NCBI GenBank assembly: GCA_014859225.1
Contig: JACUUP010000039.1
Span: 1 to 11,253, forward strand
Direction of reading: 5' to 3'
Origin: Candidatus Aerophobota bacterium
GTDB taxonomy: Bacteria > Aerophobota > Aerophobia > Aerophobales > B3-G15
Length of the DNA stretch: 11,253 bases
The notes under the pieces were generated by a model. That model saw only the letters and a program-made list of their open reading frames with translations. It made no database searches and had not been told where the DNA came from. Shown piece by piece: positions 6,362-10,223 of this stretch. Each line of letters begins with the position of its first letter. The first letter of the stretch is position 1. A program made the translations under genes and the position numbers.

Positions 6362-7321
6362 ATGACGAAGATAATCCAAACTAAGAACCTGACTAAAGAG
6401 TATGATGGATTTAGAGCTGTAGATAACTTGAATTTAAATATTGATGCAGGTGAGATTTACGGATTTTTAGGTCCAAATGGAGCAGGAAAAACTACAACTA
6501 TCTTAATGCTTCTTGGCATTTTAAAACCAACTCAGGGTGAAGTTTACCTTATGGAAGAGCCATTAAGCAAAAATCCCCTTTCTCTCAAGAAAAAAATAGG
6601 TGTAGTTTCTGAAACGCAGCATCTCTACAAAGAGATGACGGCGGGAGAATACCTGAGGTTCTTTGCTGAACTTTACCGGGTAAAAAATAAAGAGAAGAGA
6701 ATAGATGAGCTTCTAACAGCGGTTGACCTGCTTGATGTAAAAAACAAAAAATTAGATGCTTTCTCACGCGGAATGCAACAAAAGCTTGGATTTGCCAGAG
6801 CCCTCCTTCATGAGCCTGAACTTCTGCTTCTTGATGAACCAGTTTCAGGTCTTGACCCTGCAGGAATAAAGCAGGTAAGGGACCTGATAGAAAAGGAAAA
6901 CAGGAAGGGAAAAACTATCTTTATCTCTTCCCATCTTTTATCCGAAGTTGAAAAGCTCTGTAAAAAAGTGGCTATAATAAATAAGGGAAGGCTTTTAGCT
7001 GAGGATACCATGCAAAATTTACGGAAAAAGCTGACTGATTTCATCCAAATTGAAATTGAGCTTGTTGAGATAAAAAAGGAAATCATGGATACTTTAAACT
7101 CCTTTAATTTTGTGAAAGAGATTCAGCAGGAAAACAAAATTCTTACTCTCAAGGTAACTACCGACAAAGACCACAGAGCTGAAATATCCGCAGCTATTGC
7201 CAGAAATGGAGGAGTTGTGCTGGGAATAAATATAAGAGAGATGAGTCTTGAAGAAGCCTTTGTCACTATCACTCAAAAAAATATCTCCCTATTAGCAAGC
7301 ACTGAGGAGGCTGCTCAATGA
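6362..7321 (+). CDS. ABC transporter ATP-binding protein (ABC-2 / NatA-like)
   Basis: This is the cytoplasmic ATPase of an ABC-2 exporter. In its 319 residues the Walker A motif GPNGAGKTT is at 37-45, the signature is FSRGMQQKL (134-142) in place of LSGGQ, Walker B LLLLDEP is at 154-160, the D-loop SGLDP at 162-166 and the switch His at 191 (ISSHLLSE). Glu84 sits where many ABC proteins have the Q-loop Gln, a variation common in NatA-like exporters. Residues after about 215 form the extra C-terminal domain seen in this subfamily. A GAGGAGG SD lies ahead of the ATG. Its stop overlaps the next start (ATGA, 7318-7321), and the cognate permease is the third gene. The substrate is unknown; drug, ion, lipid and protein-secretion roles are all possible for this class. 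Confidence 0.95.
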   Translation: MTKIIQTKNLTKEYDGFRAVDNLNLNIDAGEIYGFLGPNGAGKTTTILMLLGILKPTQGEVYLMEEPLSKNPLSLKKKIGVVSETQHLYKEMTAGEYLRFFAELYRVKNKEKRIDELLTAVDLLDVKNKKLDAFSRGMQQKLGFARALLHEPELLLLDEPVSGLDPAGIKQVRDLIEKENRKGKTIFISSHLLSEVEKLCKKVAIINKGRLLAEDTMQNLRKKLTDFIQIEIELVEIKKEIMDTLNSFNFVKEIQQENKILTLKVTTDKDHRAEISAAIARNGGVVLGINIREMSLEEAFVTITQKNISLLASTEEAAQ

Positions 7322-8025
7322 AGAAAGTTTTCATCTACATATCTGCCATAGTAGTTGTAGTGGTGGTCTTAATCGTAGCTTTCGTGATGACTCTGGCATC
7401 TCCCAGGTATGGAATAGTCAAAGGGAAAATTTATGATGAGCTCTCAGGAGATGCGGTAAGAGGAGTCAGATTGGTACTGGATGAAAGGTCCACCGTTATT
7501 TACCAGATAAGCCGTTATGAGCTTACAAAAATTCCACCTGCAGAACATACCCTGCAGGTTTCTTCACCTGCGGGATGGATAAGCTTTAGCAAAACTTTTA
7601 AAGTGCGAGCGGGTGAAAACGAAGTTGATATACCTTTAAAAGGAGATAAAATCCCCGATTTGACAGGAATAATCTGCTTTACCGAATCTGAAAAAGAGGG
7701 AATTACTGTAGAAATAAGGTATGTTGACAGTGAACGAATTGGAATGACAGAGTTTCCCCGCCTTCCCATTAAAATTAATGTCACGTTACGGGAAAGAGTC
7801 GGGAGGGAAGAGCCTTATGAAAAGGGAGAAAAGTTATTTGAAGGGGAAGTTAAGGATTTATGGGACTCAGGAGAATACCTTGCTAAAAATAAGGGATTTT
7901 TACCATGGGATGAGGTTGCGGTGAAATTTGAAGATAGAAAATATGCAATTTTGGACGTGAAAGTTACCCTGGAGCAAGGGGACTTTGAAGATACAATAGG
8001 TGACGTTAAACTTTTTTTTGAATAA
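7318..8025 (+). CDS. Membrane-anchored beta-rich protein of unknown function in the ABC operon
   Basis: This 235-residue protein matches no gene I can name. Residues 4-27 are a strongly hydrophobic, valine-rich helix after MKK, most likely an uncleaved N-terminal anchor that places the rest outside the membrane. Residues 33-108 (GIVKGKIYDELSGDAVRGV, then a segment with the SPAGWISFSKTFKVRAGENEVDIPL pattern, quoted in parts) resemble the carboxypeptidase-regulatory-like beta-sandwich. Residues 110-235 form a second, hydrophilic, apparently beta-rich region with no recognised motif. It starts within the ATPase stop codon (ATGA) and has its own GAGGAGG SD at 7304-7310. The permease begins 12 bp after its stop. 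The placement between ATPase and permease genes suggests an accessory subunit of the transporter; this is inference from context. Confidence 0.85.
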   Translation: MKKVFIYISAIVVVVVVLIVAFVMTLASPRYGIVKGKIYDELSGDAVRGVRLVLDERSTVIYQISRYELTKIPPAEHTLQVSSPAGWISFSKTFKVRAGENEVDIPLKGDKIPDLTGIICFTESEKEGITVEIRYVDSERIGMTEFPRLPIKINVTLRERVGREEPYEKGEKLFEGEVKDLWDSGEYLAKNKGFLPWDEVAVKFEDRKYAILDVKVTLEQGDFEDTIGDVKLFFE

Positions 8026-8037
8026 GGAGGAAAAATA

Positions 8038-8874
8038 ATGAATGAAAGAGGTATCTCTTTATCAACACACAGCACAAAGATACTTACCAGAAGGGAATTT
8101 TTATCTGCTTTATATGGATGGGGATTTTATGTGGCGATATTCATCTCTTTTTTGGTCTCCTCTCTTATTTTAAGAAATTTTCTTCAGGGAATAAGGGAAG
8201 ATAATATTTTCATCTCTTCATACCCCCTTAACTTCCCGCTTTTTGTATCCATGGTTATTATATCACTTTATCTGGTGATAGTATCTGCTGTTTCCATCTC
8301 CCGAGAAAAAGAGCAGGGAACATTAGAGGTTTTATTTTACGGACCTGTTTCTTCCTCCTCATTTCTTCTGGGGAAATATTTTACAGATATGCTTTTATAC
8401 CTGATAATTGCAGGTTTTTTTTCCGTTTACTTTTTCGGGGTATCACTTATAACTAACCTGGGATTTACTGTAGCTCTGGGAAAGGCAATTTTTGTCTCTA
8501 TATTTATTGCCTCGTGTGTGATAAGCTTTGGCCTTTTCATATCCTCTTTAACCGGAAAGGTTAGAAGCTCCATAGTGTGGCTGATAGGAATACTCATTGG
8601 TTTTCTTGTTATCTGGTTTTTTCAAAATATGTTCCGCGGCATCCCTTCTGAGGCCCTTTCTTCCTGGCTTATATATGTGCAGCGAACTCTCAATGTAATT
8701 TATTATTTTGTAAACTGGGTATCTCCTTTCTCCTATCTTTCCCGGGGAATGGAATCAATAGGAGTTGGAAGTATGAGACCATTTTTACTTAATATACTTT
8801 ACTCAGTTGTCTATACGGTGGTTTTTTTAACCGCTTCCATCTATATTTTAAAAGCAAAGGGGGTAAGAGCATGA
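8038..8874 (+). CDS. ABC-2 type transporter permease
   Basis: This 278-residue integral membrane protein is the likely channel subunit for the ATPase encoded two genes upstream. About six hydrophobic helices are visible (near residues 27-46, 66-87, 115-136, 147-170, 176-196 and 250-271). The hallmark of the ABC-2 family lies between helices two and three: SREKEQGTLEVLFYGPVS (88-105), followed by LGKYF. The overall plan resembles the NosY/GldF group of permeases. The start has an excellent AAGGAGG SD (8024-8030) overlapping the preceding stop. The stop overlaps the next start (ATGA, 8871-8874). A single permease suggests a homodimeric membrane part. The substrate cannot be inferred from the sequence. 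Confidence 0.93.
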   Translation: MNERGISLSTHSTKILTRREFLSALYGWGFYVAIFISFLVSSLILRNFLQGIREDNIFISSYPLNFPLFVSMVIISLYLVIVSAVSISREKEQGTLEVLFYGPVSSSSFLLGKYFTDMLLYLIIAGFFSVYFFGVSLITNLGFTVALGKAIFVSIFIASCVISFGLFISSLTGKVRSSIVWLIGILIGFLVIWFFQNMFRGIPSEALSSWLIYVQRTLNVIYYFVNWVSPFSYLSRGMESIGVGSMRPFLLNILYSVVYTVVFLTASIYILKAKGVRA

Positions 8875-10223
8875 AATTGAAAAATCTTTTGTTAACCTGC
8901 GCAGCTTTAGTTTTTTTGACTTTAACGCCACAGCCTGGACTTACACAGGAGGAAAAACCAGCTATAAGTCTTGCTCCTCTGCTTCAGGAACAGCTTGTAT
9001 ACAGTTTTAATGTATTTGATGGAAAAGGATGGAGTGGGGGGTTTGTTCCTAAAAGTGAAGATACAATATATCTTATTGCTAATAAAGATAATGCCTTATC
9101 TGCCAAGAAAACCCTGGTTTATTTCTGGCCCATTACCGCAAGATATATGGCAGGATGGAGAACCTTAAATGAGGATATGCAAGGGACTCTTGAGATTTTA
9201 AAAGATGGAAAACTAATAGATAAGTTAGAAAAACAAGATACCGTCCTTTCTTATCCAGAAGGTTACTGGGCCGAGATAACTTTATTTTACACTGCAGAGG
9301 AGGCAACTGAATGGCACAAAAGATATAAAGATGCAGTGGATAAGTACTACGAGGCTTTAAGTAAATTCTATGAGGCAAGAGCCGAGTATACGAGGAAAAT
9401 GGATGAGTTTTTTGAGCAAATTAGAAAAAGAAGAGAAGCCGGGGAAGAAGGCCCACTTGACATTGAAATACCGAGGGAACCTGAGCCTCCTACAGGACCT
9501 GATTTTTATGTTACCGAACCTACCCGAAATTATGTGATAAATCTTCCTGTGGGTGAATATGAGATAAGATTAAGAGCAGATGATGGAACAATTGTAGAGG
9601 GAAGTGAAAAAAATCTTGTTGTATTTACCGCAAGAAGAAGAGGAGGGGTAGGTTATGAGATAATTCCCGGCAATCGCTGGACTGCAGAAGAGCAGTGTAA
9701 CGACCCGGCGGATGCTATTTATGCTGCGGGAAGAAATTTGCTTTACTTTCGTCCCTATCAGCAGGATGAGTATAACGAGCTTTATCATAACAAGTTGCTT
9801 GACCCTCAAAATGAAGGGATGAAAGAGAACTGGAAGTGGGTTCATACACAACCTCTGGAAAATGTATATCTTTTATTCTACAGCCAGGACAGGCTGCTGG
9901 AGCGTATAGATAAAAGACCCTATAAGGTGGAGCAGATTCCGGGAGCGGAGCTTGGCTATAATATTGTTGAATTTGCCCCCGAGTATCCGGGAGATAAACC
10001 CACTTTTGAAGGACAGCAGTTAATTCTTTCAGAGGAGCTTGCCAGAAAAGATTACAGAATTTATCTTGAGGATAAAGAGGAAAATACTATAATTTCTGGA
10101 AGTGAACGAGAGATAAGGTTAGCAAAAAAAGAAAATGTTAATTTTCTCTACTACCTTTCCTTTTTCCCTCTCATCATAGGAGGCATTGTTTTTACTTTCA
10201 GGCGAAGGAAGGTAAAAAAATAA
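8871..10223 (+). CDS. Exported, C-terminally anchored protein with internal duplication, unknown function
   Basis: I do not recognise this 450-residue protein. It opens with a signal peptide (MKLKNLLLTCAALVFLTLTP, cleavage likely near residue 25) and ends with a hydrophobic segment (about 424-443) and a basic tail RRRKVKK, predicting a large extracytoplasmic domain held by one C-terminal helix. Residues 141-192 are highly charged, probably helical or coiled coil, then a proline-rich linker (EIPREPEPPTGPD, 199-211). Two halves look homologous: LVYFWP (82-87) with LLYFRP (290-295), DGKLIDKLEK (112-121) with QDRLLERIDK (339-348), and YEIRL...TIVEGSEK (230-247) with YRIYL...TIISGSER (395-413). 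It starts in the permease stop codon, behind a weaker AAAGGGGG SD. Its gene order implies a partner of the transporter, such as a substrate-handling or cell-surface component. Confidence 0.87.
   Translation: MKLKNLLLTCAALVFLTLTPQPGLTQEEKPAISLAPLLQEQLVYSFNVFDGKGWSGGFVPKSEDTIYLIANKDNALSAKKTLVYFWPITARYMAGWRTLNEDMQGTLEILKDGKLIDKLEKQDTVLSYPEGYWAEITLFYTAEEATEWHKRYKDAVDKYYEALSKFYEARAEYTRKMDEFFEQIRKRREAGEEGPLDIEIPREPEPPTGPDFYVTEPTRNYVINLPVGEYEIRLRADDGTIVEGSEKNLVVFTARRRGGVGYEIIPGNRWTAEEQCNDPADAIYAAGRNLLYFRPYQQDEYNELYHNKLLDPQNEGMKENWKWVHTQPLENVYLLFYSQDRLLERIDKRPYKVEQIPGAELGYNIVEFAPEYPGDKPTFEGQQLILSEELARKDYRIYLEDKEENTIISGSEREIRLAKKENVNFLYYLSFFPLIIGGIVFTFRRRKVKK

Follow-up and report, generated by a model that had tools for sequence, protein, structure and literature searches.

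A conserved ABC-2 transporter module with a putative Ig-like periplasmic partner in Aerophobota and other bacterial lineages

ABC-2 transporters are ubiquitous, but most have yet to be matched to a cargo, and few are known to have partner subunits in the periplasm. An 11,253-nucleotide stretch of DNA from the 1.8 Mb genome of a Candidatus Aerophobota bacterium, hereafter the window, raises the question of what is built by four adjacent genes in which an ATPase and a permease alternate with two exported proteins, here called ExpA and ExpB. The ORF list bears out the preliminary description of this arrangement, with four ORFs in the order ATPase-ExpA-permease-ExpB at exactly positions 6362-10223 (Table 1).

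Table 1. Features of the four-gene module, in coordinates of the window.
Feature	Position	Strand	Length	Description	Sequence
ATPase gene	6362..7321	+	319 aa	ABC-2 type, DrrA/GldA-like; PF00005 E 5.9e-33	
ExpA gene	7318..8025	+	235 aa	N-terminal anchor, carboxypeptidase-regulatory-like domain	
Intergenic gap	8026..8037	+	12 bp	holds the permease Shine-Dalgarno sequence	AATAAGGAGGAAAAATAATG
Permease gene	8038..8874	+	278 aa	ABC-2; PF12679 E 4.2e-15	
ExpB gene	8871..10223	+	450 aa	signal peptide, two Ig-like domains and C-terminal anchor (model)	

Both kinds of junction that had been reported were found; ATGA overlaps join the ATPase to ExpA (7318-7321) and the permease to ExpB (8871-8874), and the 12-bp gap ahead of the permease carries the motif AAGGAGG. 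Each of the four genes is, however, preceded by a Shine-Dalgarno-like sequence of its own, so that production of the four proteins in a fixed ratio, as had been proposed, does not follow from the junctions. These genes recur in dozens of genomes with junctions of this type, which argues that the module is not a product of chance. A search of open-licence papers returned none that describes this gene set.

The first and third genes place the module among ABC-2 systems, which are recognized by a PF00005 ATPase together with a permease bearing an ABC-2 membrane domain. The ATPase matched PF00005 at 114.8 bits; among NCBIfam models, DrrA (263.5 bits) and GldA (243.2 bits) scored best, neither reaching its cut-off. 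The permease matched PF12679 (ABC2_membrane_2; 56.2 bits) and PF12698 (48.6 bits) above the cut-offs, and its best NCBIfam model was GldF (32.2 bits, E 1e-7); hydropathy predicts approximately six transmembrane segments with a long loop between the last two, and the alignment contains a near-invariant SREK..GTLE.LFYGP motif. When the permease profile was compared by sequence with solved structures, no relative was found.

ExpB is an undescribed protein with a predicted Ig-like fold. It begins with a hydrophobic signal (residues 6-24) and ends with a hydrophobic stretch (425-443) followed by RRRKVKK. In the structural model (pLDDT 88.8), a first Ig-like domain composed of residues 39-141 and approximately 205-253 is split by a long helix (142-189), a second Ig-like domain spans approximately 256-420, and a C-terminal anchor occupies 421-449. 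No family in Pfam or NCBIfam accounts for ExpB; the only Pfam match of the window protein, to Fe_bilin_red at E 0.12, is attributable to chance. A structure search returned generic Ig-type matches (filamins, the S-layer proteins EA1 and SlaB, and antibodies) with Z values of 5-6.8; no match reached E<=0.001 or Z>=8, which in itself is no proof of a new fold. Comparison by sequence with solved structures gave one hit, a weak coiled-coil similarity to antigen I/II (E 0.015). The invariant columns of the ExpB alignment are mostly aromatic, small or proline residues and include no set of the kind found in enzyme active sites; ExpB is therefore unlikely to be catalytic, and its conserved residues would fit a structural or binding subunit.

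ExpA carries a single N-terminal transmembrane stretch (approximately residues 4-22), a carboxypeptidase-regulatory-like (transthyretin-like) domain at approximately 32-107 and a second beta domain at 117-231; its model (pLDDT 88.0) likewise contains two beta domains. CarboxypepD_reg (PF13620) was detected in 16/16 ExpA homologs at E<=0.1, the best at 1.7e-10, and the window protein itself scored 21.2 bits, below the cut-off of 32.3. Foldseek retrieved DUF3823 (E 2e-6), the SusC N-terminal extension and carboxypeptidase regulatory domains. The earlier statement that neither exported protein matches a family therefore stands for ExpB, as far as Pfam and NCBIfam are concerned, but not for ExpA. 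The resemblance of ExpA to proteins of the CarboxypepD_reg/DUF3823 type lies in its transthyretin-like domain; it differs from them in its inner-membrane anchor, its second conserved beta domain and its tie to an ABC-2 operon.

ExpB was present in 16 of the 17 Aerophobota genomes and, among 386 genomes sampled across the domain, in only four outside that phylum. Two of these four belong to Atribacterota, where 21 of 50 genomes carry it, all within one set of families and amounting to most of one half of that phylum. It was also found in 3/3 genomes of the other phylum represented among the four, a three-genome phylum, and in a few Spirochaetota, Limnochordaceae (Bacillota), Clostridia, ANGP1 and Armatimonadetes MAG records. 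The 'Clostridia bacterium' MAG records CSMAG_2055 and CSMAG_2518 look mislabelled and are apparently genomes of the window's own order. Distant homologs with 23-25% identity across >90% of the protein are encoded on two Rhizobiaceae plasmids. The topology of the ExpB tree agrees for the most part with the phyla, and the Rhizobiaceae pair branches remotely from the rest.

These four genes form a real, conserved unit. Co-occurrence across genomes had been put forward as a test of the original proposal, and in Aerophobota and Atribacterota the genes indeed lie together with their order preserved; ATPase-ExpA-permease-ExpB is kept in Aerophobota wherever the contig allows, apart from one genome without ExpA, and is the same in the 14 Atribacterota loci that were read. 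Exported-protein genes without ABC genes in most genomes would have spoken against the proposal, and this was not what was seen; one paralog lacks its ATPase alone. Where the contig reached far enough, the permease always accompanied ExpB, and a permease profile run against 61 genomes (E<=1e-10) recovered only copies beside ExpB. The start-stop overlap of permease and ExpB is retained almost everywhere, across phyla. The four proteins show parallel pairwise distances (r 0.90-0.95), as plain vertical descent would also predict. The trio of ATPase, permease and ExpB was found in the three-genome phylum, Spirochaetota, Bacillota, ANGP1/Armatimonadota and the Rhizobiaceae plasmids. ExpA is missing in two genomes (G008 and G061), was not seen next to the module in Bacillota or ANGP1, and precedes the ATPase in Spirochaetota; since it is missing or displaced in some lineages, the core consists of ATPase, permease and ExpB, with ExpA as an accessory. 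This core, recurring in several bacterial lineages, is probably one conserved machine.

Genes neighbouring the module vary between genomes, and genomic context therefore indicates no cargo. In some Atribacterota (L117, L119, L123) the module is adjoined by an importer, likely of CUT2 type, with a periplasmic binding protein, a double-length ATPase and two permeases; in others (L092, L118, L120, L121, L122, L124, L125) it adjoins a mutM-type DNA glycosylase gene, with a SorC-type regulator nearby.

Our preferred reading, to which we give a probability of roughly 0.55, is that the products of the four genes assemble into a single ABC-2 transporter complex, with ExpB and ExpA making up its periplasmic side; the gene set, its order, its conservation and its domain make-up are observed, membrane topology and folds are predicted, and the complex, its stoichiometry and the direction of transport are inferred. 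Every Aerophobota genome searched encodes Omp85 proteins, so that 'outside' here means the periplasm. In such a two-membrane bacterium, the four products would form a single inner-membrane complex in which a pair of ATPase subunits powers a pair of permease subunits. The C-terminal helix would hold ExpB, an obligate subunit, beside the permease, while its two Ig-like domains and helical arm extend into the periplasm; ExpA would be an accessory, anchored at its N-terminus and bearing a transthyretin-like domain. ATP hydrolysis may then either push a substrate out to ExpB and ExpA or move the periplasmic parts mechanically. A glycan or sugar-related compound is weakly suggested as cargo by the nesting of the module in sugar-importer operons and by the likeness of ExpA to domains of carbohydrate-handling proteins. 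The module is a strictly conserved pump-plus-partner unit with an unnamed, putatively Ig-like subunit, carried by nearly all Aerophobota and half of the Atribacterota genomes searched, two phyla from which very little has been cultured; it is a defined, testable gene set, and the Rhizobiaceae plasmid copies bring a relative within reach of genetics.

An alternative is that the module is an accessory of sugar uptake, working with CUT1-type importers, for instance by exporting sugar-derived waste or handling glycans nearby, and that a paralog without an ATPase is driven by MalK or by the window ATPase. Support comes from that paralog, a second permease-ExpB-ExpA set in the window genome (G000:C220, L003 6021-11761) whose ExpB and ExpA are 43% and 38% identical to those of the window. 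There the gene order is SorC-type regulator, HAD, binding protein, MalF, MalG, permease, ExpB, MalK, VOC, amidase, ExpA, FGGY kinase and a transaldolase-type gene; permease and ExpB sit between MalG and MalK of a CUT1 operon that contains no ABC-2 ATPase, and the closest ATPase in the genome, the window copy aside, is 38% identical to the window ATPase. On the Rhizobiaceae plasmids a similar nesting occurs, with SBP-MalF-MalG-MalK-ATPase-SDR-Perm-ExpB on one strand, and ANGP1, a Clostridia record and Caldatribacterium also have CUT1 genes close to the module on the same strand. Against this, the paralog and its operon are known from one Aerophobota genome only, and the operon's binding protein was absent from 289 other genomes at E<=1e-40, save for one 28% relative. 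In the ExpB tree the paralog falls inside Aerophobota on a long branch, which makes its placement unsure; it looks like a recruited duplicate.

Most copies of the module, moreover, are not beside a CUT1 operon. With the paralog and the Rhizobiaceae operons left out of the count, 5 of 22 lineages had a CUT1 permease gene no more than 8 kb from the module, where the density of such genes predicts 2.8 (P ~0.13); with 5-84 CUT1 permease matches per genome, the two will often be close by chance. A stricter same-strand count gave 3 against 0.6 expected (P ~0.02), by a rule set after the data had been seen. Constant coupling to sugar import was accordingly rejected, only some copies adjoining CUT1 genes. 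We treat the link to sugar importers as a lead, not a result, and consider the accessory reading unlikely, if marginally the likeliest of the alternatives. Less probable still is a composite machine, in which the paralog permease and ExpB, built into the CUT1 operon, would have lost their own ATPase and a MalK-type or window ATPase would power both the importer and the ABC-2 permease. PMC7912956 mentions the R. leguminosarum glycerol transporter GlpSTPQUV, with two MalK-type ATPases as in the Rhizobiaceae operon; the small protein of the latter has no Pfam match, so that a cargo was not assigned on this basis.

The preferred reading of an ABC-2 complex with periplasmic partners invites comparison with named systems, the loose likeness to GldA/GldF and NosF/NosY having been raised at the outset. 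That likeness holds for the general plan. GldA-GldF-GldG, which is associated with gliding in Bacteroidota, combines an ATPase and a permease that belongs broadly to the same ABC-2 class with an anchored partner, encoded by the next gene, that has a large outside domain; ExpB shares the position and anchor orientation of GldG. The module could on these grounds be a distant member of the Gld plan, with ExpB as the large C-terminally anchored periplasmic subunit of a surface-secretion or gliding-type apparatus, and GldA and GldF do rank second and first among the named models for ATPase and permease, respectively. The scores fall far short of the cut-offs, however, at 243.2 of 402.6 bits for the ATPase and 32.2 of 288.5 bits for the permease. 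The GldG-type auxiliary domain (PF09822) had no match in window ExpB and was not among the families listed for 30 homologs (25 of the 35 matched); ExpB is Ig-like by prediction, ExpA is additional, and the module lies outside Bacteroidota as far as the search extended. Kinship with Gld therefore appears improbable.

NosD-NosF-NosY, which acts in nitrous-oxide reductase maturation, likewise has a periplasmic protein dedicated to its ABC-2 ATPase-permease pair. NosD, however, is a soluble beta-helix, whereas ExpB is anchored and modelled as two Ig-like domains with a long helix and no beta-helix; window ExpB had no match to the NosD family, and no nitrous-oxide genes, nosZ included, were seen within the window. 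The DrrA-DrrB pair supplies the best named model for the ATPase, which nevertheless falls below the DrrA cut-off of 312.45 bits, and the permease matched DrrB at only E 0.19; the Drr plan is not known to include exported partners. Membership in GldAFG and NosDFY was thus rejected on the features tested, scores and predicted fold being unsuitable. The best-supported conclusion is that the module works in the manner of ABC-2 systems that have a periplasmic partner, yet on these features belongs to neither.

It is comparably doubtful that ExpA and ExpB are not subunits at all, the pump being merely co-transcribed with exposed proteins that act elsewhere, for example in an envelope scaffold or adhesion. 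The structural likenesses of ExpB to S-layer proteins would agree with such a role, at scores that are generic. Against it, the ordinary signal peptide of ExpB and its C-terminal anchor with a positive tail make a dedicated exporter unneeded, and its one-to-one occurrence with the permease across phyla exceeds what would be expected of an unrelated surface protein. A defence system was rejected, since PADLOC gave only generic hits to the ATPase and none to the other three proteins.

No RNA or tRNA features were found in the window. Upstream of the module are groES/groEL, yebC, tldD/pmbA-type and cobO-type genes, those from groES to pmbA being named from the sequence itself. Directly after ExpB, and convergent with it, lies a gene for a putative endonuclease of the Uma2 family (PF05685; 10232-10774, minus strand), followed by a thiC-type gene on the other strand, also named from the sequence itself. 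GroEL (445-2067) terminates in MPPYPPPQY in place of the usual GGM-rich tail.
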